A stretch of 28,707 bases of DNA, taken from the IMG/VR virus record IMGVR_UViG_3300011113_000171, positions 1-28,707 of that record, one strand, 5' to 3'. Positions within the stretch are counted from its first letter, which is position 1, and each line of letters opens with the position of its first letter. The notes under the pieces were generated by a model. It was not told the origin of the DNA and ran no database searches. It saw nothing but the letters and a program-made list of their open reading frames with translations. Below, piece by piece: positions 3,817-25,039 of this stretch. The DNA comes from a virus. Position numbers and translations under genes: made by a program.

Positions 3817-6059
3817 AGTGGTTGTCCTTCAGGCGGTATTTCGCCCATTTCTGGCGGTATTTGTTGCATGTCAGGGGGCGTCATGCCCATTTCTTCGCCC
3901 ATTTGGGGCATTTCGCCCGGCAGTTCCAAGCCGCCTTCGCTCATCGCCAAGTCGCCGGTGCTCATAATGTCGCGCAGGGTCTGCATAACGACGTCTTGCA
4001 CCTGATCGGGCGACATGGCCGCGCCGACAGCAGATAGACGTTGTGTCTCGGCTTGGTAGGCCTTGATTTCGGCTTCGAAGTTCTTGCGCTCCAAGTCCTG
4101 CACCTCGACCGATTTGCCGACGTTCTGCAGCATTTGCTGCAACTGTTGCAGCTCTTGGCCCATTGCTTCCATCTGCTGTTTGGCCATCTGCATTTCGGGC
4201 GACTCGTCGCTGCCTTCCATAATCTTCGGATCGATGATCTTGGCAAAGCGTGCTGCCATCTCCTGCGCACCAGGCCAGTCCATGTTCTTGATGAACAAAT
4301 CACCTGCAACCTGCCAGAGCTGCGGGTTGGACTGCAGGATCATGCCCATCGCATCCAGTGCTTCCTGACGCTTGGTCAGGTAGGACGGGCCGGTGGTCAC
4401 CACCACGTCGTACTTACCGACGCCGGGGTTGTAAATCTTGTCGATGACGATGTCGTTTTGGTCGCGAATCTCACGCACCGCTTCTTGCTGCATCGGGTCG
4501 AGCTTGACCATGTCGGTGTCGCCGTCGACGCCAATAATGCGGGCGATGCGCTGGGTGTCGTAAATCTTCGGGATCAGGTCAACAATTTGACGGGTAACGT
4601 GCCTAATAGCCCGCGCCAGATTGTCCACGTAATGATAAGTGCCAGTATCAGACTGACGCTCTCGCGCCATAATCGCCTTGCCGGAGCGCTCGTTAGACGT
4701 TGCACCCAAGCTCGTATCGTACTGGCCAGTCGTTGACTTAATATCATCAGACGCCCCCATCTTGGCTTGGATCAGCCCAGTCTGCGGCAGCGGTGGTGCG
4801 GCGCGTTGCGGTAGCGGCAGCACAGCACCCGAACCATCCGTCACGTCGGGGTTGACCTCCAGATACGGCCAGTTCTGCGTGTTGGCCGTTTTCCACTGCA
4901 TCTCGTAGCCTTCAAACTGGCCACCATACCCAATGAACGGTGCCTTGGGCGCCAAGGCCAGCATCTCGGCTTCTTGGCTTGTCCAGTAGTTGTACATGCG
5001 CTGGGCATCCTTGGCGTTGCGCACCAGACCCGACACGTACAGCTTGCCGTCGACTTCAAATTCGTTGCCGATGACACGGATCACCGGAATCCAGCGGCCT
5101 GCCCAGTCGTTCGACTCGAGCATTTCATAGCCGTTGGTCTTGCACCACTTGACCCGCTTGGCGTTGACCTCGCGGCTGCGGATCGGCTTGATGCCCATCT
5201 GCTTCATCTGCTTGGCCTCGGGCGAGCCTTCGAATGCCGTGATGTTGCCAGGGTACAGGTGCAGCGTCGCGCGGTCGTACTCAATGTAGTAATACTCAGC
5301 GATTCTGACGGTGTCCTGGTTGATCCAGACCGAGATCGACTGGTCGCCCACGCCTTGCGCTTGTAGCGTTGAGAGCGGGCTGGCGTCTGGGAACATGCGC
5401 TCGTAATCCGCGCGCTGCAGGTCTTCGGTAATGAAGCACCACTTGGCATCCGCACCGCATGGGTCTTGGATGGTTGGATCCATGTAGACCGAGAAGCTGT
5501 TGCGAATGCGCGCGATCTTGATGTCCTGATCGAACGTGTCGTCGTCGCAGTATTCCGTCAGGATGCGGATGTAGCCTTCGCCGTAGGCAACTTGGTTCTC
5601 GCAGGCGGTGTCGTAGGCAACGTCGGCGTCCGAGATGTACTCGATGTGCCTGACCATGCCGTTGTAGATTTCGGCGACTTCAGGGTCGGCGCGGTCGTCA
5701 GCGGGTATAACTTTGCCGCTCGGACGGTTTTGTCTTTGGTCATTGGTGACCTGCCGTACGTGCTGGGGCAGCTTGTTAATTGTCAGCGTCGGGCGGGCGT
5801 TGATGGTCTGCCCTTGCACGGCGCCACGCGTTGCCAGCACGTCCGCTGGCCACTGCCAGTGGTTATCAGGTGAGCCTGCATAGAAACGCAGGTCGTCTAG
5901 TTCGTCTTCCCGGCTTTCAGACAGCGCAGAAATGGCCATAGTCAGCCGTTTACGCATGGTCGACAACACATCCTGTGTGTCTTTCTTCATGTCGTCTGAC
6001 GGAGGATTTCCGCCAATATCAGCGACTTTTGCCGCCTTATTTATGCCGGTGTAGTCCAT
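3813..6059 (-). CDS. Portal protein, P22 gp1-like
   Basis: 748 residues, matching P22 gp1 (about 725). Characteristic segments are the N-terminal LRFYAGSPDNHWQWP region, NKLPQHVRQVTNDQRQNRP around residue 95, and the block near 150-200 with ACENQVAYGEGYIRI and NSFSVYMDPTIQDPCGADA. The C-terminal 150 residues hold a coiled-coil Gln/Met/Glu-rich barrel-like segment followed by a Met/Pro/Glu-rich tail. The dodecameric portal forms the vertex through which terminase pumps DNA and to which the tail attaches. The ATG directly abuts the TAA of the small basic gene upstream, and the stop overlaps the next ATG. The family call is firm. Confidence 0.93.
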   Translation of the reverse strand: MDYTGINKAAKVADIGGNPPSDDMKKDTQDVLSTMRKRLTMAISALSESREDELDDLRFYAGSPDNHWQWPADVLATRGAVQGQTINARPTLTINKLPQHVRQVTNDQRQNRPSGKVIPADDRADPEVAEIYNGMVRHIEYISDADVAYDTACENQVAYGEGYIRILTEYCDDDTFDQDIKIARIRNSFSVYMDPTIQDPCGADAKWCFITEDLQRADYERMFPDASPLSTLQAQGVGDQSISVWINQDTVRIAEYYYIEYDRATLHLYPGNITAFEGSPEAKQMKQMGIKPIRSREVNAKRVKWCKTNGYEMLESNDWAGRWIPVIRVIGNEFEVDGKLYVSGLVRNAKDAQRMYNYWTSQEAEMLALAPKAPFIGYGGQFEGYEMQWKTANTQNWPYLEVNPDVTDGSGAVLPLPQRAAPPLPQTGLIQAKMGASDDIKSTTGQYDTSLGATSNERSGKAIMARERQSDTGTYHYVDNLARAIRHVTRQIVDLIPKIYDTQRIARIIGVDGDTDMVKLDPMQQEAVREIRDQNDIVIDKIYNPGVGKYDVVVTTGPSYLTKRQEALDAMGMILQSNPQLWQVAGDLFIKNMDWPGAQEMAARFAKIIDPKIMEGSDESPEMQMAKQQMEAMGQELQQLQQMLQNVGKSVEVQDLERKNFEAEIKAYQAETQRLSAVGAAMSPDQVQDVVMQTLRDIMSTGDLAMSEGGLELPGEMPQMGEEMGMTPPDMQQIPPEMGEIPPEGQPL

Positions 6060-6626: not shown

Positions 6627-8164
6627 CACGCCCCCATCCAGCCGGTTGCGGCTGTTAAACGCGGCGTGTAGCCATCACTGCGACGCGCCGCACGCTCGTA
6701 ACCCGACTCGCGGCTGGCCACCGGGAACGCGAACGTCACCGCGAGGGCGTCTGCTGCATCCGGCGAGGCGAGGCCGCGTGACTTCATCTCTTTCTTGCCT
6801 TCCAAATAGATCGTGCCTGACGAATCGGGCTTTTTCATCGGGCCGGTCAAGTCCGCTTTCAATTGCCTGTCGTTGGGTATGCTGGCTGTTTTGAGCCACT
6901 CCTTCATCGCACCCCACATCTCGGCGCGCTTGTTACCCCACATGACCGGCTTGCTGGACTTCCAGCCGAAGTTCACTCCCCGCACCTTGTATCGCTGTTC
7001 TTTTAACCTGTCAAGTATGCCGTAACCCAGACCGCCTTCGTCGATGATCGTCAGTGCTGGTCGGTACTCCTCGATGGCGTCGATCACCCGACCCACAGTC
7101 GTCATGGTGTCCTCGCCGTGGTAGCGTTTGATCGCGACTAAATCCCGTCCTTGCCGAACGACGATGACGGTGGCGTCCGCGCCGCCGCGAGCTGGGTCAA
7201 CGCCGATAACAATTGGCGCCGTTTCGTCCTTGTAGCGTGGCCGACTGGCGGCGTCGTCGACAGCACTCGCACCAATAAACTGATCTTCGCCAGCTGATGG
7301 AAACTCTCCGTAGACCTCAACCCTAGCCTGCGGCGAATCCTCGCCATACTCCGCAATGATCTGCTCATATATCTGCTTGTCCGTATCCTCGACCGTGCGT
7401 GAGTCGATGTTCTCCGTCTGCCAGAAGTTGCGCTTGGCGTGGAAGCACTCGTAGAAGTACCCTTGGTTGCGCCGTGGGTTGGAAAACGCGAACCAGTACC
7501 GGTCTAGGATCGGTTCCGTGAAGAAGCCCGCACCGACCGACCAGATCGCGTCCGGTATACCCGAGGCTTCGTCGAAGATCAGCATCATGCCGTCGTGGTT
7601 GTGCACACCGGCGTAGCTGTCCGGATTCTCTTCCGACCACAGCTTGCCTTCCGCCGCCCAGTAGCGCGTACCCTTTTTCAAGTCACGCTCGACCAGCTCG
7701 GTTAGCCACTTGGCAGGTGTGAGCTTGGTTGCGCTGATCTCCCACCAATGGTTGTTGATCACCATCGCCTGCCACTTGGTCAGCTCACCCCATGTGACTG
7801 ATCGGAGCTGCGCCTCACTGTTGGCTGACACGATCACACTAGACCCGATGCGGGTGGTCAACATCCACAGCACTAGCCAGCTGACCAGCGCCGACTTGCC
7901 GATACCCCGGCCAGACGCAACCGCTGTGCGCAGGGCGTCCATGTCGACCTGCCCCTTGTTGGTCTTGATGTGCGTGGCAATGCGTCGCAGTATCTTGCGC
8001 TGCCAAGTGCGCGGCCCTTTGAACTTGGCCAGCGGTGTGTTGGCTTGCCCCCACGGGAACGCAAACAGCACGAACGCTTCGGGGTCGTCAGCTATCTGCG
8101 GCGCCCATAGGCGCGCCATCAGTAACTGTTCGCCCTCGGCGTCATAGATCGGCTGTTGCGCCAT
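6626..8164 (-). CDS. Terminase large subunit (packaging ATPase/nuclease)
   Basis: 512 residues, the usual length. The N-terminal ATPase has Walker A GRGIGKS at 85-91, Walker B MMLIFDEA at 193-200 with the catalytic Glu, and the coupling motif FSNP at 227-230. The C-terminal RNase H-fold nuclease has metal ligands in GVDPARGG (D323), IIDEGG (D375) and SPDAADA (D469/D472). It docks on the portal, cuts concatemeric DNA and pumps it into the head. The start overlaps terS by 23 nt with no good ribosome site, so translation is probably coupled. All catalytic residues are present. Resemblance is to P22 gp2-type large subunits. Confidence 0.95.
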   Translation of the reverse strand: MAQQPIYDAEGEQLLMARLWAPQIADDPEAFVLFAFPWGQANTPLAKFKGPRTWQRKILRRIATHIKTNKGQVDMDALRTAVASGRGIGKSALVSWLVLWMLTTRIGSSVIVSANSEAQLRSVTWGELTKWQAMVINNHWWEISATKLTPAKWLTELVERDLKKGTRYWAAEGKLWSEENPDSYAGVHNHDGMMLIFDEASGIPDAIWSVGAGFFTEPILDRYWFAFSNPRRNQGYFYECFHAKRNFWQTENIDSRTVEDTDKQIYEQIIAEYGEDSPQARVEVYGEFPSAGEDQFIGASAVDDAASRPRYKDETAPIVIGVDPARGGADATVIVVRQGRDLVAIKRYHGEDTMTTVGRVIDAIEEYRPALTIIDEGGLGYGILDRLKEQRYKVRGVNFGWKSSKPVMWGNKRAEMWGAMKEWLKTASIPNDRQLKADLTGPMKKPDSSGTIYLEGKKEMKSRGLASPDAADALAVTFAFPVASRESGYERAARRSDGYTPRLTAATGWMGA

Positions 8165-8591
8165 GTGTCAGTTTAGTGGGCAATGTTTGTGGTTGCTGTT
8201 CGGTAATCAGACCGTCAATGACGCGTTCCTGCGCCTGCTGCAGCGCCTGCGTGATGCTGATCCGGTTCGTGATGTCGACACTAATCTCTTGACGTGCTGT
8301 CCAGCCGTGGCTGTGCTGCAGGATGGCCAGCGCCGCCTTGGCGTCGCCTGCGCGAGCTGCGTTGCGCAGATGCAGGCTAGCCTCCATCTCGGAGTCAGCG
8401 CGGCCCTTTTGTTCTGCCATCGCAGCCGCTGGGTCGAGCTCGCACAGCTGCCGGTACTCGGTTGGCAACATGCCAGCAGCTAACGCCAGCGAGTCGCCCT
8501 TCAGACCCAAAGCCGCTGCGTCATAAATCGCCTGGAGACGCGCTTCGGTCGCCTCCACTTTGCGCGGGGTGAACGGGATGGATTTGAACAT
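8142..8591 (-). CDS. Terminase small subunit
   Basis: 149 residues. The N-terminal 50 (RLQAIYDAAALGLKGDSLALA, then GMLPTEYRQLCELDP) looks like a helix-turn-helix for DNA recognition. The middle is a charged helix, and the C-terminal part has ILQHSHGWTARQEISVDI and ISITQALQQAQERVI, typical of phage small terminases. It would bind the packaging site and hand DNA to TerL, encoded next door with a 23-nt overlap. The start is uncertain: ATG 8591 gives the family-like MFKSIPFTPRK beginning but lacks a ribosome site. An in-frame GTG at 8642 adds a hydrophobic stretch and is disfavoured. Confidence 0.85.
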   Translation of the reverse strand: MFKSIPFTPRKVEATEARLQAIYDAAALGLKGDSLALAAGMLPTEYRQLCELDPAAAMAEQKGRADSEMEASLHLRNAARAGDAKAALAILQHSHGWTARQEISVDITNRISITQALQQAQERVIDGLITEQQPQTLPTKLTHGATADL

Positions 8592-8671
8592 GGCTTGATG
8601 GTAACGGATTTCTACAAAAAATAAAAAAATTTTGTCTGACACCTCCGTGGTCGTGACCGGTTAGGCGCGGG

Positions 8672-8689
8672 CCCCCACCCCCCTCCCCC
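8672..8689 (-). other. G-rich tract (possible G-quadruplex) upstream of terS
   Basis: The minus strand carries three uninterrupted G runs of 5, 6 and 5, separated by single bases. The tract lies between the 16-mer dyad and terS, so it would be in the leader or non-template strand of late transcription. Three rather than four runs means a canonical intramolecular quadruplex is borderline. Confidence 0.5.
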
Positions 8690-8692
8690 AAA

Positions 8693-8800
8693 GTTAGTGA
8701 GCACTTACTTCATGCAGCCAGGTTAGTGAGTACTAAATTACAAGTTAGTGAGTACTAACTTACAGTTATCAGCCTGGCAAGTTAGTAAGCACTCACTAAC
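8693..8800. repeat. 108-bp imperfect dyad with four copies of a 16-mer
   Basis: Copies are at 8693-8708 (GTTAGTGAGCACTTAC), 8722-8737 (GTTAGTGAGTACTAAA), 8744-8759 (GTTAGTGAGTACTAAC, self-palindromic arms GTTAGT/ACTAAC) and inverted at 8800-8785 (GTTAGTGAGTGCTTAC). The outer copies are inverted about a centre near 8747. GCCAGG at 8717-8722 and CCTGGC at 8773-8778 are inverted about almost the same point. The consensus is GTTAGTGAGYRCTWAM. It may be an operator, a TerS recognition (pac) site, or an initiator or resolvase site. Confidence 0.85.
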
Positions 8801-8834
8801 ATCTGTGGGCGGTTTAGGTTGCCAACAAAAAGCG

Positions 8835-8856
8835 AGGGCCGAGGGCCCTTTTTTTT
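8835..8856 (+). terminator. Intrinsic terminator, possibly bidirectional
   Basis: A 6-bp stem (AGGGCC/GGCCCT, loop GAG) is followed on the plus strand by eight T residues. Read on the minus strand, the same stem is followed after CGC by TTTTT (8831-8827). No plus-strand gene precedes it. It may block stray transcription into the early operon, or act on leftward late transcription before terS. Confidence 0.7.
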
Positions 8857-8878
8857 GTTGCTTTTTTGTATATAAATC

Positions 8879-8887
8879 TGTGAATAA
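8879..8887 (-). other. DnaA box match in an AT-rich stretch
   Basis: The minus strand reads TTATTCACA, a full match to the bacterial DnaA box consensus TTATNCACA. It lies in a strongly AT-rich stretch (about 8849-8905) next to the 9-mer repeats. A single 9-mer can occur by chance, so its position gives it weight rather than the match alone. Confidence 0.5.
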
Positions 8888-9174
8888 CTTTTTTGTTGTC
8901 AAAAGGCTATGTAGGCAATGTAGGCAATGTTGTCATGGAAAAAAAGTCGCAGCGCGCGCAGGTATGCGCACGCCATGGCATGGTACTGTTGCCATATAGA
9001 TATCAAAAATAAAGTTCTTAAGATTGGATAGATTAAATAGCCAACATAGCCAACAAAAAGCCAAAAGCCTTGCCAATCCTCGCATCCCACGTTGGCAAAC
9101 CACGCGCCAACAATAGCCAACATTTCACCCAAACCGCCTACAAATCCGCGACGCAAATTAGTGTAAAAGATTCT

Positions 9175-9202
9175 TTTGCATTTCCGTTTTTTGTGCTATT
9201 GT
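9175..9202 (+). promoter_or_regulatory. Candidate sigma70 promoter of the rightward early operon
   Basis: A -35-like TTTGCA (9175-9180) is separated by 16 bp from TATTGT (9197-9202). A TG dinucleotide one base upstream of the hexamer makes an extended -10 (TGCTATTGT). The predicted start is near 9209, about 57 nt ahead of the first good ribosome site. It is the best plus-strand promoter I see before 9266. Confidence 0.5.
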
Positions 9203-9215
9203 GTGCGGGCAGTAA

Positions 9216-9269
9216 ATGATTGTTTTACCAGGTGAATGCCTATTTTTTAATCAAGGGAGCAATAAATGA
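9216..9269 (+). CDS. Possible 17-residue leader peptide
   Basis: An ATG about 7 nt after the predicted transcription start opens a 17-codon frame (MIVLPGECLFFNQGSNK). Its TGA overlaps the ATG of the next gene (ATGA). There is no clear ribosome site, so if translated it would be nearly leaderless and coupled to the first early gene. The only support is geometry; it may be chance. Confidence 0.25.
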   Translation: MIVLPGECLFFNQGSNK

Positions 9270-10970: not shown

Positions 10971-10996
10971 GCCCGCCCTCCGGCGGGCTTTTTTTT
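10971..10996 (+). terminator. Strong intrinsic terminator of the early operon
   Basis: A 7-bp stem GCCCGCC/GGCGGGC with a CTCC loop is followed by eight T residues. A second hairpin just upstream (10933-10939 with 10947-10953, CGCCGGA/TCCGGCG) stands in tandem. The U-tract ends inside the stop codon of the converging minus-strand gene. Confidence 0.93.
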
Positions 10997-11582
10997 ACGC
11001 CAGCGCGCCCCATTGATCGGCCATTGCGGCGGCGATCCCTGCAAACGTCGCACTGCGGATTTTCCATCGATCCGGTGACGGCGGCAGGTTGTACCACTCC
11101 GGCAAGCTCCTGCCGCTCTTGGTGACGTGCCGCGCGCCCTTGTCGACGATATTCGTCGGTGTAAGCGGCGGCAGCCCCTGCAACCATAAGCACGTGGTTT
11201 TCGTCGCCTCATGGCCGAACTGCCACGGCTGGATGATCTGATCGGGTTTTCGGATTCGGCTGGAAATGATGCTCACAGGGTTTTCCAGCGCGATACGCGG
11301 TATCGGCGCGGCCAAGAGCTCACGCACGAACTCGAGCGCCTCGGCTTGTTCGGCGTGCTTGTCTTTGAACCACCGCGCACCCGACACGGCCAGATGCGTA
11401 CATGGTGGATGCGCGATCATCAAATCCCAACCATCGGCCAGAATGTCGCGCACGTCGCCCTGATAATGGGGTCCAGGCGCGTCACTCGGCAATAAATCGC
11501 ACGATAACGCATCATGCCCCGCCCGCAGGAACGCATCCCGCACGGCCCCGCTATACTCGCACGCCACTAGCACGCGCATCAT
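10995..11582 (-). CDS. Small cytosine-methyltransferase-like protein
   Basis: 195 residues that read like a compact C5-cytosine methyltransferase core. A motif I-like ACEYSGAVRDAF is at 7-18, an acidic motif II-like region with GDV at 42-44, then HPPCT with the candidate catalytic Cys61 (motif IV) and ENP at 100-102 (motif VI). A C-terminal RSATFAGIAAAMADQW recalls motif X. It is much shorter than classical enzymes (over 300) and has no obvious target-recognition domain. Phage homologues are often annotated as SAM-dependent or DNA cytosine methyltransferases. The ATG overlaps the primase stop (ATGA). It may modify phage DNA or act as a nucleotide-modifying enzyme; activity is unproven. Confidence 0.65.
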   Translation of the reverse strand: MMRVLVACEYSGAVRDAFLRAGHDALSCDLLPSDAPGPHYQGDVRDILADGWDLMIAHPPCTHLAVSGARWFKDKHAEQAEALEFVRELLAAPIPRIALENPVSIISSRIRKPDQIIQPWQFGHEATKTTCLWLQGLPPLTPTNIVDKGARHVTKSGRSLPEWYNLPPSPDRWKIRSATFAGIAAAMADQWGALA

Positions 11583-13885
11583 TTCACCAAACGCACGGCG
11601 GCGGGCGGTGGGATTTCTTCGACCATGCGGCGCAGCTCCGACTTGCTCGCATTCGCCATTTCAGGCGCGCAGAATATATGCTTCTTCGTGCTGAACTCCC
11701 GCGACGCTAAACGGCCCATGTCAACCCAACCGGCCTCACGCAGCGCGTGTAAGAGCGCCTGCTGGTATATCTTCGCGCTGCCCGAGCTTCCCTGCAGGCG
11801 GTCACATAACGCATGGAACGGCCCGCCGATCACGCCTGACGCGAACTCGCCCAGGCGACGCTCCATCATGTCAACAAGGTAGGATTCGCCCGCACTGCGG
11901 CCCTGCTCCACCATAATGATTTTCGCCTCAGTAAGCGGTGGCGTCGCGCCCGGATTGAATCGGCTCACGTCGCGCTTATAAAGCCAATCGGCGGCCACGG
12001 CCAGCCCGCCCGCCTTGTACCAGTCCCAAATGGCCTGCGCGGCGGGCTGCGTCATGCGCTCCGCCTCGGAATACGTCACGAACCAACGCCGATCATCACC
12101 GGCTAACGACAACGGCACGCGCTCATTCGAGAACGCGAGCACGAAAATGCGGTTCAGCGCCTGGTACGGGTGCAAGCTCTTGCGGTTCACTTGCAGGAAC
12201 TCCGGCGGCGCGGCGATGATCGGCTTTAGATGGTTCTCGAGCGCGCGACGGTCTTTCGCTTCGCTCTGGCGCAGCTCTTCGAAGACCATCACCTCGGACT
12301 CGAGCGCATAGCCCCATTGCGACGTGATTTCTTCGTTGCGTACTATCTTGACGTTCGCCAGCGCCTCGCCACCGATGCCCCACAGGAACGGCTGCCACAT
12401 GGTGTCTTTGCCCGAGCCCGGGTGTCCGATATGCAGCACGGCATGGTTGATCTTCTGATTCGGGTGTTGCAGTTTGTACGCCATCACGTTCAAGACGTGC
12501 TCACGCTCGACGTCATCGGGAATCATCCGCTCGACGTGCTCGAGCCACGGCGACGCGTCACCGGCCACCGGCGCGGGTCGCTGATTAATCCAACGGTTGC
12601 CGAATACTTGGCCCTCACGCGACACTAGGACGTTTTCGCCTGCGGCGTATGTGATGCCTGCTAACGCGAGCGCACCCTTGGCCTGTCGGTTCTCGTCAAA
12701 GCATACAGACGCCTCAATTCGGCGTTTCTGTTTGCTCGGGTGGATTGAATAACAGGTGACGTGTCGAAAGAGTGCATTAAAAGTACCGCGCGCAACCTCT
12801 CGCCGATCTTGCAAATCAAAGTAAGCATCATCCTCTTGAATGTATGCAAAGCGCTCATACCAGCCTTCTTTCGTGGTTCTATCCAATTGCTTGCGCTCAA
12901 CCTCGGCAATCACCTCGGCGCCCTTGTCGGGAAATGCCTCAGTCGGTTGCAGCTTCGAGAGCGTCTGATCCATCACGGCGGCCAAGAGCTCATCACGCAA
13001 GCCTGGCGCGTGCTTCGGGCCGCCCTGCGCGGCCACCCAATCGAGAAACGTATGCGAGTCGAGCTCAAGGCAGTGCGAGTGCAGGCAGCAGTAGGCGCGC
13101 ATCGAAGGGTTGTACCGGCCTTCGGGGTTGCCATCGGTATGCTCGCCCGAGTTCGGGCAGATGACACCGGCCCAGCCCTGCGGATTCGGGCGCGAGAGTA
13201 GCAGCCCCTGCCCCGACAACCATGCCATCACGTCGTCCGCGCCATCGTCGGACAATCGGATCGGGCGCAGCGTCAGCGAGTCGGCAGGTGCTGGCGTCAC
13301 GCCAAGCCCTGCGCAGAGCTCATCCAACGTGTACTCGCGCTCGGGGTGGAACTCGACTAAACGGGCTGCAAAGCGGTTCTTGTTGGGTTTCAGGTTGATC
13401 GAACCTGGTAGCCGGAAGTTGCGCACCGGGTTGCAGGCGCCGGGGTCGGTGTAGCCTGCATCCGCTATCGCGCGGATGGCGGCGGCGTACTCGCCCTTCG
13501 TCGGCTGGTCAGAAAAGGTGTAGCCCCACTGGTACGAACCCTCGGACGTCTCGATGATCCACGTCGGCGGCGCAGCAGGCGTGTTGGGTGCCTTCTCGGG
13601 GTCGCCTACGTCATCGAGCACCATCACGAGCACGTACTCGCAATTCGCAGCGGATGCGCTCACATGGCCGTCCTTGAATCGGTCGATGATGAACGACGCC
13701 GTGTTGCCGTAGATGGCCCAATCGGGTTTGATGTTGTGACTTGGTAGGTACGCAGGCCACGTACACTTGATGGCTCCATCGGCGTGGAACTGCAGCTCAC
13801 CGCCTTTGAGTTGTGGTTTCTGGCGCACAATCAGCGCCGTCTCGCCTTCAGGCGCAAGATTCTGGTAGTATTCTAGAAATTCCAT
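11579..13885 (-). CDS. PrimPol-type primase fused to SF3 helicase
   Basis: 768 residues. An archaeo-eukaryotic-type primase/polymerase domain occupies about 1-200, with metal motif LDDVGD (90-95), SYQWGY (117-122) and FRLPGSINLK (157-166). A probable zinc site follows (C243, H249, C266/C267, H269, H271/C272). The C-terminal SF3/D5-type helicase has Walker A GHPGSGKDT (487-495), Walker B VMVFEE (532-537), FSNE (585-588) and DDRRW (597-601). The plan resembles NrS-1-type phage primase-helicases. It would unwind, prime and perhaps initiate at the origin. ATG 13885 has AAGGA 6 nt upstream; a GTG at 13912 lies inside a hairpin and is rejected. The stop overlaps the methyltransferase-like gene. Confidence 0.88.
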   Translation of the reverse strand: MEFLEYYQNLAPEGETALIVRQKPQLKGGELQFHADGAIKCTWPAYLPSHNIKPDWAIYGNTASFIIDRFKDGHVSASAANCEYVLVMVLDDVGDPEKAPNTPAAPPTWIIETSEGSYQWGYTFSDQPTKGEYAAAIRAIADAGYTDPGACNPVRNFRLPGSINLKPNKNRFAARLVEFHPEREYTLDELCAGLGVTPAPADSLTLRPIRLSDDGADDVMAWLSGQGLLLSRPNPQGWAGVICPNSGEHTDGNPEGRYNPSMRAYCCLHSHCLELDSHTFLDWVAAQGGPKHAPGLRDELLAAVMDQTLSKLQPTEAFPDKGAEVIAEVERKQLDRTTKEGWYERFAYIQEDDAYFDLQDRREVARGTFNALFRHVTCYSIHPSKQKRRIEASVCFDENRQAKGALALAGITYAAGENVLVSREGQVFGNRWINQRPAPVAGDASPWLEHVERMIPDDVEREHVLNVMAYKLQHPNQKINHAVLHIGHPGSGKDTMWQPFLWGIGGEALANVKIVRNEEITSQWGYALESEVMVFEELRQSEAKDRRALENHLKPIIAAPPEFLQVNRKSLHPYQALNRIFVLAFSNERVPLSLAGDDRRWFVTYSEAERMTQPAAQAIWDWYKAGGLAVAADWLYKRDVSRFNPGATPPLTEAKIIMVEQGRSAGESYLVDMMERRLGEFASGVIGGPFHALCDRLQGSSGSAKIYQQALLHALREAGWVDMGRLASREFSTKKHIFCAPEMANASKSELRRMVEEIPPPAAVRLVK

Positions 13886-13907
13886 TGCAGTCCTTGTAGT
13901 TGAAGAA

Positions 13908-13925
13908 GCCACCCCGCCAGGTGGC
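13908..13925. terminator. Symmetric hairpin between PP-loop gene and primase
   Basis: Stem GCCACC/GGTGGC with a 6-nt loop, extendable outward by A-T pairs to about 12 bp with one G-T. On the plus strand it is followed by six T residues, a good terminator. On the minus (coding) strand it is followed only by TTCTTC, so it may be an attenuator or RNA-processing element within the replication operon. Confidence 0.6.
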
Positions 13926-22627: not shown

Positions 22628-23152
22628 CTACTCATAAATGATGTTGATGGTTCCAGCGTCAAAGGTGTCTGTGCCGTTGACTGTGGTAATGCGTACTCGG
22701 TCAAGAACGCCACTTAAAGCCAATGAACCAGTTATTACGCCGCCATAACCAGCCACAGAATTACTATAGTTTGCACTAGCAACCCATGTATTCCCAGTAA
22801 CATTAAGCAAAACTAAACATCCACTATAAGCGGCAGAAGCAGCTTGCTGAACTAACAAAAAGCCTGTTGTATTAGTGTTAGATGCGCCGGATGATCCAGC
22901 TACATACGCATATCCTGACGCATACCCTGTCGTTATAAAAGAACCCGATCCAATCTGAAATAGCAAATTACTTGTGCCGTTCGTACTCATCCCGCTAAAC
23001 ATCAGCGTAATCCGACGCGCCCAACTTGGAATTGACGTAAATTCAATTGCCGTACCAGATGTCGAAGCTACAGCCGTTGCTCTCTGCAAGCTGTCATACA
23101 CCGCACCGCTGTTCGTAGTAACACCTGCGCTACCGTTAATAGTGACTGCCAT
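22628..23152 (-). CDS. Fibre-type protein, paralogue 1 (receptor-binding candidate)
   Basis: 174 residues. It shares with its two neighbours the block EFTSIPSWARRITLMFSGMS near 40-60, an IGSGSF motif, a variable middle, and the C-terminal LDRVRITTVNGTDTFDAGTI. The composition is Ser/Thr/Gly/Ala-rich and beta-like, as in phage fibre tips or head/tail appendages. I recall similar modules at the ends of tail fibres, but a stand-alone role is not established. Its SD overlaps the end of the preceding gene. Position between tail genes and lysis genes suits adhesins. Confidence 0.65.
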   Translation of the reverse strand: MAVTINGSAGVTTNSGAVYDSLQRATAVASTSGTAIEFTSIPSWARRITLMFSGMSTNGTSNLLFQIGSGSFITTGYASGYAYVAGSSGASNTNTTGFLLVQQAASAAYSGCLVLLNVTGNTWVASANYSNSVAGYGGVITGSLALSGVLDRVRITTVNGTDTFDAGTINIIYE

Positions 23153-23154
23153 AA

Positions 23155-23754
23155 TCAGCCCTCGTAAAGAATGTTGATGGTTCCGGCGTCGAAGGTGTCG
23201 GTTCCGTTGACCATTATCATGCGAACACGGTCTAGCGTTCCAGAAAGCGCGAGGCTTCCTGTTAAGGTATAGCCGCTATTAGCACCACTTATGCTGGCGC
23301 CTCCAAAAGCGACCCAGGTATTTCCGCTGATGTTTAGTAACTGAACAACGCCGTTATAAGCACTAGCCGCAGCAAACGCTTGCCCAAGTATGACAAACCC
23401 GCTTGTGTTTGCGGTAGCCGTTATCGAGTTTGCGTTTGCACCGCCGATAACAGTTGAAGCATACCCGCTTGTCGTAAAGGAGCCGCTACCGATTTGCACT
23501 TGAGCAATACTGGTTCCGCTAGTTGATATGGCGCTAAACGCTACCGTAATTCGTCTGACCCACGACGGTAAACTTGTAAACTCAACGCTTGTACCAGACG
23601 CGGTAACCGCAGTACCTGCTTTTAGCTGCCCATACGCGCCGGTAGACGCAACTGTAAACTGCGTCGTGCCATTACTTTGGAGCGCCAGATCGCCGCTGGT
23701 GTCAGCGGTCTGGATATAGCCTGTTGAAGTTGATGCGTTAAGAGTGACCGCCAT
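23155..23754 (-). CDS. Fibre-type protein, paralogue 2
   Basis: 199 residues. After an N-terminal part different from paralogue 1 (about 1-50, with GDLALQSNGTTQFTVASTGA typical of fibre-associated proteins) come the shared blocks EFTSLPSWVRRITVAFSAIS, IGSGSFTTSGYAS and LDRVRMIMVNGTDTFDAGTI. The middle differs strongly from its paralogues, which is what one expects of a specificity region. SD CGGAG sits at the end of the small gene before it. An adhesin or appendage role is inferred. Confidence 0.65.
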   Translation of the reverse strand: MAVTLNASTSTGYIQTADTSGDLALQSNGTTQFTVASTGAYGQLKAGTAVTASGTSVEFTSLPSWVRRITVAFSAISTSGTSIAQVQIGSGSFTTSGYASTVIGGANANSITATANTSGFVILGQAFAAASAYNGVVQLLNISGNTWVAFGGASISGANSGYTLTGSLALSGTLDRVRMIMVNGTDTFDAGTINILYEG

Positions 23755-23759
23755 AATGT

Positions 23760-23900
23760 TTACTCCGCAGGTTGTTCAGCTTGTGGTTCAGCAGGCGACT
23801 CAGCAGGCGCTTGCGCAGCTTGAATCGCTGCAATTTCTTCAGCAGTCAGTTCTACTTGGGTAACTTCACCAGTCTGAACATTGACAACGATTCTATGCAT
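23760..23900 (-). CDS. 46-residue protein, possible fibre chaperone
   Basis: MHRIVVNVQTGEVTQVELTA continues with EEIAAIQAAQAPAESPAEPQ and AEQPAE: a short strand pair, one helix and an Ala/Pro/Glu-rich tail. The 'NVxTGExTxxxLTxEEIAAxxAA' plan is common in small tail-assembly or fibre-assembly proteins. A clear SD (AGAGG, 6 nt) precedes the ATG. It sits between two fibre paralogues. The role is inferred. Confidence 0.65.
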   Translation of the reverse strand: MHRIVVNVQTGEVTQVELTAEEIAAIQAAQAPAESPAEPQAEQPAE

Positions 23901-23910
23901 GATTTACCTC

Positions 23911-24498
23911 TTACTCGTAAAGGATGTTGATTGTGCCAGCGGACGGCGTTGTATCAAAGGTGTCTGTGCCGTTGACTGTAGTTATGCGGATTTGATCTAG
24001 CGTTCCAGATATGGCTGTTGCTGATGTTCCTGCCGAAGATTGACCACTAACTCCGCCACTTGGAAGTAACACACTTGACGCAACCCATATATTCCCTGAG
24101 ATGTTTGTGATAACAACGTGTCCGTTATAAGTAGAACCCGCTACGTTTGCCTGAGTTAAGACAAATCCAGCAGTACTAGTGTTTTGAGTATTTGCATAAG
24201 ATGAAGCAACGCTTGCATAGTTTGCAGTTGCTATGCTACCGGATCCAATTCGTATTAAAAAACTACTTGTACCACTCGTACTTACCCCATTAAACATTAC
24301 CGTAATCCGCTTAACCCATGATGGAATTCCGGTAAAGTCAATCGATGTTTGACCAGCGCAAGTAACAGAAGTACCACTCACAACCGGAGCCAGCGTACCT
24401 GTTACCGCCACTAACGTCTGTGTCGTGCTACCTGCTACCGCAGGAGCAGATACCGTAATCGAACCGGATGTATCGCCTGATAGAACTAAAGAAGCCAT
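23911..24498 (-). CDS. Fibre-type protein, paralogue 3
   Basis: 195 residues starting MASLVLSGDTSGSITVSAPA. The shared blocks are SIDFTGIPSWVKRITVMFNG, IGSGSI and LDQIRITTVNGTDTF, with a short insertion before the common ending (TTPSAGTINILYE). The N-terminal region is distinct from both paralogues. ATG 24498 is set by AAAGGA 6 nt upstream; a longer frame extends into the HNH gene and is rejected. It is probably a fibre or appendage subunit. Confidence 0.65.
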   Translation of the reverse strand: MASLVLSGDTSGSITVSAPAVAGSTTQTLVAVTGTLAPVVSGTSVTCAGQTSIDFTGIPSWVKRITVMFNGVSTSGTSSFLIRIGSGSIATANYASVASSYANTQNTSTAGFVLTQANVAGSTYNGHVVITNISGNIWVASSVLLPSGGVSGQSSAGTSATAISGTLDQIRITTVNGTDTFDTTPSAGTINILYE

Positions 24499-24508
24499 GA
24501 TTAATCCT

Positions 24509-25039
24509 TTACATATATGACTGAAGATTGGCAAAATCTCCGTGCATCTCTTTTGCGGCGGTAACTCTGGCTTGCACCGCTTCACTTTCAGACTTAAAAG
24601 TACCTAAAGTGTATGCTTTCCCGTCTTTCCAAATCTGCGCCGTCCAATAATCGCCGTAGTTTCTTTTGTACACACCTTTATTCTTGCGCCCCGTTTTTCC
24701 AAACCGCCGGTTTTGGCATTGCTGTGCTCTTGTTGCTTTTCGCAAATTACTAATTGCATGGTTCTGCGGGTTGCAATCAATATGGTCTATTTCGGACTTT
24801 GGGTCTTCTCCGTAAAAAATCATCCAAGCGGCTTTTCCGCAAGGATACCCTCTATATTTTTTATCGTAGAGCAAATAACAAGTCTGATGCCCATTTTTCG
24901 CTGTCACTACCCCAACTTTATCGCCTTGTTTAACGCCAGCTCCGCCGTTGCGTTTCCAGTAAAAAATACCATCGTCGCCAACAACCCATGCTTGTTGAAT
25001 ATATGCTATCTCATCCGCAGGCACAAATCGTCTTCTCAT
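24509..25039 (-). CDS. HNH endonuclease with AP2 DNA-binding domain
   Basis: 176 residues. The HNH nuclease core is EIDHIDCNPQNHAISNLRKA (D85, H86, N93, N98), preceded by conserved KAAWMIFYG. An AP2/ERF-like domain follows at about 118-165 (GVYKRNYGDYWTAQIWKDGK, then TLGTFKSESEAVQAR). This is the architecture of free-standing phage homing endonucleases. It is wedged between a tail fibre gene and a fibre paralogue, with the next SD starting right after its stop. It is probably a selfish element that nicks related phages lacking it; the target is probably nearby sequence. Confidence 0.85.
   Translation of the reverse strand: MRRRFVPADEIAYIQQAWVVGDDGIFYWKRNGGAGVKQGDKVGVVTAKNGHQTCYLLYDKKYRGYPCGKAAWMIFYGEDPKSEIDHIDCNPQNHAISNLRKATRAQQCQNRRFGKTGRKNKGVYKRNYGDYWTAQIWKDGKAYTLGTFKSESEAVQARVTAAKEMHGDFANLQSYM

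Follow-up and report, generated by a model that had tools for sequence, protein, structure and literature searches.

The window analysed here, i.e., the whole 28.7-kb stretch of a virus record, is a phage fragment (contigs of its relatives span ~36–38 kb) encoding a P22-type portal protein, a terminase, a family A polymerase, a VapE/DUF5906 helicase, DUF2800- and SNF2-type proteins, and a protein which we take to be of the DUF2815 type, no Pfam match having been obtained for it. The gap at 8643–9265, bounded by the leftward terS gene (8142–8642) and by a rightward cluster of small genes starting at 9266, is occupied by an array of short repeats (Table 1). The DNA of this gap gave no match in a DNA search against phage records. 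Relatives were collected from viral contigs via the helicase and the large terminase, and the terS-anchored gap was then cut out; no relative of the helicase was detected in 84,980 GTDB genomes, so no host or prophage was found.

Table 1. Features of the array region and of the helicase gene (positions in the window).
Feature	Position	Strand	Remark
Single iteron TGTTGGCAA	8819-8827	-	Exact TGTWGGCWA; left of core
Terminator-like hairpin, T runs on both sides	8834-8858	.	Left of core; consensus match only
DnaA-box-like TGTGAATAA / TTATTCACA	8879-8887	+	
Degenerate iteron TGTTGTCAA	8894-8902	+	One mismatch; adjoins DnaA box
Plus tandem, two head-to-tail iterons TGTAGGCAA	8910-8918, 8919-8927	+	Exact; same position in relatives
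Degenerate third copy TGTTGTCAT after plus tandem	8928-8936		
Spacer between the two arrays	8937-9037	.	Right half (~8984-9037) at 70-72% AT (AT profile)
Minus tandem, two head-to-tail iterons TGTTGGCTA	9038-9046, 9047-9055	-	Exact
Single degenerate iteron CGTTGGCAA	9090-9098	+	One mismatch; relatives carry their own word here
Single iteron TGTTGGCTA	9114-9122	-	Exact
VapE/DUF5906 SF3-type helicase, proposed initiator	11579-13912	-	777 aa
C-terminal winged-helix domain	11669-11893	-	Residues 674-748; AlphaFold model of last 120 residues
Wing loop ASREFSTK	11684-11707	-	Residues 736-743; co-varies with iteron word

Six exact copies of the 9-mer TGTWGGCWA and two copies with one mismatch fall within 8819–9122. 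The first-pass annotation had counted at least eight copies in ~300 bp, a figure that is reached with one mismatch allowed (eight) and not with exact copies only (six). Its description of tandem pairs in opposite orientations (8910–8927 on the plus strand, 9038–9055 on the minus strand), differing from each other at the W positions (TGTAGGCAA vs. TGTTGGCTA), was borne out, both pairs being exact and 128 bp apart from start to start. Against the six exact copies in 8643–9265, 2,000 dinucleotide shuffles contained 0.06 on average and never more than 2, and throughout the window, all exact head-to-tail 9-bp tandems belong to the array except one at 5196.

In ~150 relatives, the layout persists while the 9-mer itself differs. 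The shared order often comprises a DnaA box, two to three tandem copies on the plus strand, an AT-rich spacer of ~108 bp, and two copies on the minus strand, along with single copies. The word of the window is kept by many relatives; others carry, in the same frame, TGTGGACAA, TGTGGGCAA, TGTGGGTCA, TTTGGGTCA, TGTTAGTCA, GCACGTCA/TGMMGGCAA, or TGAGGGCAA. Hence, it is the arrangement that is conserved and not the exact repeat. For most word classes, the density in the gap exceeds that in the remainder of the loci 17- to >1,000-fold, with a much weaker enrichment of TGMMGGCAA (1.2-fold) and GCACGTCA (3.8-fold). Both tandems were measurable in 64 of the 141 genomes, yielding a median gap of 108 bp, a median spacer AT content of 62% (vs. 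46% for the whole loci) and, in 27 of these 64, a start-to-start distance of 126–129 bp from the plus to the minus tandem. The array-to-array distances cluster, but 9-bp steps resulting from lost copies confound them, so no claim of helical phasing is made. The annotated genome MW202483, which is complete and has a helicase of 50% identity, shows TGTTGGTAG tandems, an inverted set, and a DnaA-like TGTTGATAA box at the same place; in a few relatives, the array was not found. The label of each genome is its majority word, mixtures being present in some genomes. A strict caller of perfect tandems missed most of the arrays, and another caller was used instead.

The AT-rich right half of the spacer is a candidate unwinding element. 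At the place of the DnaA-box-like element, most close relatives bear the perfect box TGTGGATAA, the plus-strand occurrences of which number 42 in the terS-gap regions and 3 elsewhere in the loci. TGTGRATAAC is present in 34 of the 40 close and 6 of the 107 distant relatives. As for an origin of the oriC type, recognized by DnaA boxes TTATNCACA, the window has a single TTATTCACA, and the DnaA of the host is unknown.

The helicase matches Pfam PF19263 (DUF5906) at 40.9 bits, above the curated cut-off of 27.6 (E 3.7e-10), and has the SF3/AAA+ core with the Walker A motif GHPGSGKDT at residues 496–504, where G499, G501, and K502 are invariant. Among solved structures, Foldseek placed the C-terminal region of the NrS-1 polymerase (6k9c, E 2e-12) nearest to the helicase half of the model; the fold relatives also include the SaPI5 primase-helicase (7ola, E 1.3e-6), D5-type helicases, and PriRep1 with dsDNA (7pds). 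The full-length model has a mean pLDDT of 74.6 and a pTM of 0.38. Support for the primase half is limited to RepB_primase at E 0.0079, below the Pfam cut-off, and the "DNA primase" PHROG matches cover mostly the helicase part of the protein. Rep-type iteron plasmid origins have iterons of 17–22 bp; here, the repeat unit is 9 bp, and no Pfam match to a Rep_3/RepA-type initiator was found among the proteins scanned, so the window does not qualify as an origin of that type.

In a model of the last 120 residues (mean pLDDT of 83), the C-terminal domain forms a winged helix, with a pLDDT mostly >90 within the domain; structure modelling also drew on an alignment comprising the loci only. Helix 717–726 takes the position of the classical recognition helix and is nearly invariant, and the wing is composed in the model of strand 730–735, loop 736–743, and strand 744–748. 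A PDB search with the domain returned no significant match, only non-significant ones of the RTP, RFX5, PadR, and MarR types; hence, the inference that the wing reads the word rests on the model and on the covariation described below.

The association of the iteron word with individual helicase residues was scanned in 141 labelled genomes, pairs being compared inside bins of overall helicase distance. The top four of the 777 columns were residues 736 (0.60), 741 (0.53), 735 (0.36), and 738 (0.33), with a standard deviation of 0.069. By the model, the co-varying residues are located at the wing. When used to predict the word in distant phages, the 12-residue segment 734–745 scored 0.86, 0.76, and 0.51 at identity limits of 0.95, 0.85, and 0.75, respectively; the rest of the helicase did less well (0.62, 0.35, and 0.14). 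In a clade with near-identical helicases, the fixed VapE differences between the TGTGGACAA phages (L036, L037, L038, L042, L045, L046) and the GCACGTCA/TGMMGGCAA phages (L040, L041, L064) are confined to six columns, all of them in an eight-column stretch of this same segment (770–777 of 813). No column above 0.29 was found in the controls, i.e., portal, TerL, TerS, p95, PolA, DUF2815, DUF2800, and SNF2; p66, p71, p86, the 10995–11582 protein, and the PAPS-reductase-like protein were left out of the control scan due to too few loci. Comparison thus shows, as far as can be judged from sequences, that the bases of the iteron are matched to residues 735–743 at the wing.

On a tree built without the helicase C-terminus, 37 word changes were inferred, or 31 with the GGAC and GGGC words merged and L200 assigned to TTTGGGTCA (32 if not). 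Residue 736 changed on word-change branches in 21–22 of its 29 changes (p ~1e-17); the tree counts are not fully independent, which leaves the contrast between columns unaffected. Of the 31 word changes, 6 lacked a wing change on their branch; conversely, the wing changed without the word on 54 other branches. The A736/S741 wing is paired with TGTGGGTCA in L125 and L189, so the map from wing to word is not one to one. The gap of L200 holds two words: its core arrays are of TTTGGGTCA, in agreement with the TTTGGGTCA-type wing of its helicase, and the copies to their left, which do not match the wing, are of TGTGGAC; this origin looks like a mosaic, its core following the wing.

Two further scans reached more divergent phages, in which the arrays were called without the helicase, previously known contigs were removed, and the wing classes were carried over from the first set. 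In these later loci, K736/D741 occurred with TGTGGRC or TGTGGAT in 19 of 23 and M736 with AGTCA in 7 of 9; for the A/non-R wing class, the exact TTTGGGTCA was met in 0 of 12, and only the non-G at position 2 held. At the level of single bases, G at position 2 was seen in 28/31 loci having Arg738 and in 0/13 lacking it; for A at position 6, the counts were 18/19 with Asp/Glu741 and 0/25 without, and for A at position 5, they were 6/8 with Met736 and 4/36 without. Since these base rules, drawn from the first-set table, and the addition of TGTGGAT were settled after the later units were known, the result is a check on new loci rather than a blind prediction. For a few loci, the automatic procedure set the frame of the unit wrongly (e.g., TATCCACAA instead of TGTGGATAT), and the array of L332 appears to be spurious.

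Overall, it appears highly probable that replication of this freshwater P22-portal-type phage starts at the array, with the 9-mers acting as iterons bound by the C-terminal winged helix of its own SF3 helicase; no binding or replication data are at hand. The first-pass annotation had read the array as a candidate iteron origin with a nearby PrimPol-SF3 helicase as its possible initiator. This reading is supported by the array position and layout kept in relatives with the same replisome genes and by the word changing with the helicase wing; it holds for the SF3 helicase part, the primase half remaining weakly supported. Absence of the repeats from relatives had been named as a refutation. Taken literally, it is met, for many relatives lack TGTWGGCWA, but a different 9-mer, matched to their own helicase, stands there. 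GC skew, suggested as a check, marks no origin at the array: neither a minimum nor a maximum was seen there in the window or in the complete relative MW202483. Being dominated by gene orientation, the skew is uninformative on the origin.

The mechanism proposed is inferred at each step. Helicase subunits would occupy both tandem arrays, which point in opposite directions, two helicase rings would assemble across the AT-rich spacer, and the spacer would melt, possibly with the help of host DnaA at the neighbouring box in the close clade; the family A polymerase and the other replisome proteins of the phage would follow. The conserved frame of the word is presumably set by the invariant portion of the domain, to which the classical recognition helix belongs, and the variable positions of the word would be read by the wing. 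We lean, if only slightly, towards the wing being an exchangeable reading head in which residues 736, 738, and 741 contact bases 2 and 4–7, and the joint changes of wing and arrays having repeatedly switched origin specificity, perhaps in escape from satellites or origin-directed nucleases using the old word. By analogy with PLE and Odn, such nucleases or satellites could drive the switching, for which there is no test here.

The location of the array between divergent genes would also suit a set of operators through which the helicase or its winged helix regulates the leftward and rightward units, replication starting elsewhere; indeed, covariation demonstrates only binding and not origin function. 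Such a role seems improbable, given that a sigma-70-like promoter was sought in the gap and none was found, that two inverted arrays around an AT-rich spacer together with a DnaA box represent the anatomy of an origin, that the binder is a replicative helicase, and that the window has no other 9-mer tandem arrays. Even less can be said for an origin driven by host DnaA with the 9-mers as degenerate DnaA boxes. Some words are one base off the box (TGTGGACAA vs. TGTGGATAA), and the box adjoins the array in 34/40 close relatives, but TGTTAGTCA, TTTGGGTCA, and GCACGTCA are far from it, most distant relatives lack it (6/107 have it), and it is a phage protein that is tracked by the word.

The adjacency to terS brings to mind a packaging (pac/cos-like) site read by the neighbouring small terminase, yet the columns of TerS do not track the word (maximum 0.19, 66 loci) and those of the helicase do, which makes this option very hard to uphold. 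We attach just as little weight to the possibility that the covariation merely reflects common descent, or recombination carrying neighbouring genes together, without contact. Many of the loci are related, and only a few kb separate the helicase gene from the array; however, the signal is limited to one segment of 777 residues and is absent from the other testable genes, including terS beside the array, the changes are repeated on the tree, and M736 recurs with TGTNAGTCA words in divergent clades.

The preferred scheme of binding and opening by the phage's own helicase would, by analogy, resemble the mode of action proposed for the self-loading initiators SaPI Rep and SCCmec Cch2. Several short iterons are recognised by the C-terminal domain of SaPI Rep (PMC7581432 citing Ubeda 2007), and Cch2 is a 3'-5' helicase, the isolated C-terminal domain of which binds short direct repeats, three AAGTG (PMC7581432); in the available text of that source, no family of switched words is described for Cch2. 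SaPI Rep/Pri-Rep belong to the same structural helicase class as the protein of the window (7ola, 7pds). At the same time, the window represents a phage genome and not an island; its 9-bp iterons form tandems without intervening bases that flank a spacer on either side, the natural words are numerous, and specificity has been traced to the wing. In SaPIs, the origin is found directly downstream of rep, unlike the array, which ends at 9122, ~2.5 kb beyond the helicase gene end (11579). An iteron-specific C-terminal dsDNA domain is characteristic of SF3/D5-like initiators; in the window, the winged helix is predicted and its specificity inferred from covariation. For the primase-polymerase of phage NrS-1, Head and Tail domains with novel folds and an 8-nt recognition sequence in two copies are reported, the accessible part of the source making no mention of tandem iterons (PMC7102993). 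In PLE, covariation links the DNA-binding domain of the initiator RepA to the iterons, the two being exchanged as one module (PMC8263062), and the origin faces the origin-directed nuclease Odn. The likeness to the window is in this covariation; PLE differs in its RepA_N domain, ~30-bp semi-palindromic iterons, satellite nature, and few specificities.

Initiator–iteron pairs rarely offer many natural specificities; the case found in the open-access literature, as far as its accessible text allows, is PLE RepA, with only a few. What is new here is the phage group, the tandem 9-mers, the repeated switching, and the placing of specificity in the wing. From the large phage set, a residue-to-base map was obtained that also applied to clades fetched later, and a likely initiator can be named for a VapE/DUF5906 phage group whose protein carries the annotation "virulence associated protein E". 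Origins in metagenomic phages would become predictable from the helicase alone, and why origins switch specificity so often becomes a testable question.

Several other elements were noted in these genomes. A second repeat family, by terS (8690–8801), consists of four copies of the palindrome-like GTTAGTRAGYACTNACTAAC. Counted on both strands, its core TTAGTRRGYRCTHA has 218 occurrences in the gaps of relatives, compared with 0 elsewhere in their loci; in MW202483, palindromes resembling GTTTAYRTAAAC are located at the same place. In L279, a different 9-bp tandem, TGTAAGGTT, is present in several copies by the palindrome region, at ~170–230 of the extracted terS-anchored gap. Near the helicase of a distant relative, a small gene (L286 7083–7379; MW202483 31423–31719) bears the annotation "dnaa protein helix-turn-helix". 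In the window, an HNH endonuclease that weakly matches an AP2-like domain is encoded between structural genes at 24509–25039, and three adjacent proteins with related "GTDTFD...AGTINILYE"-like ends, possibly duplicated tail proteins, are encoded at 22628–24585.
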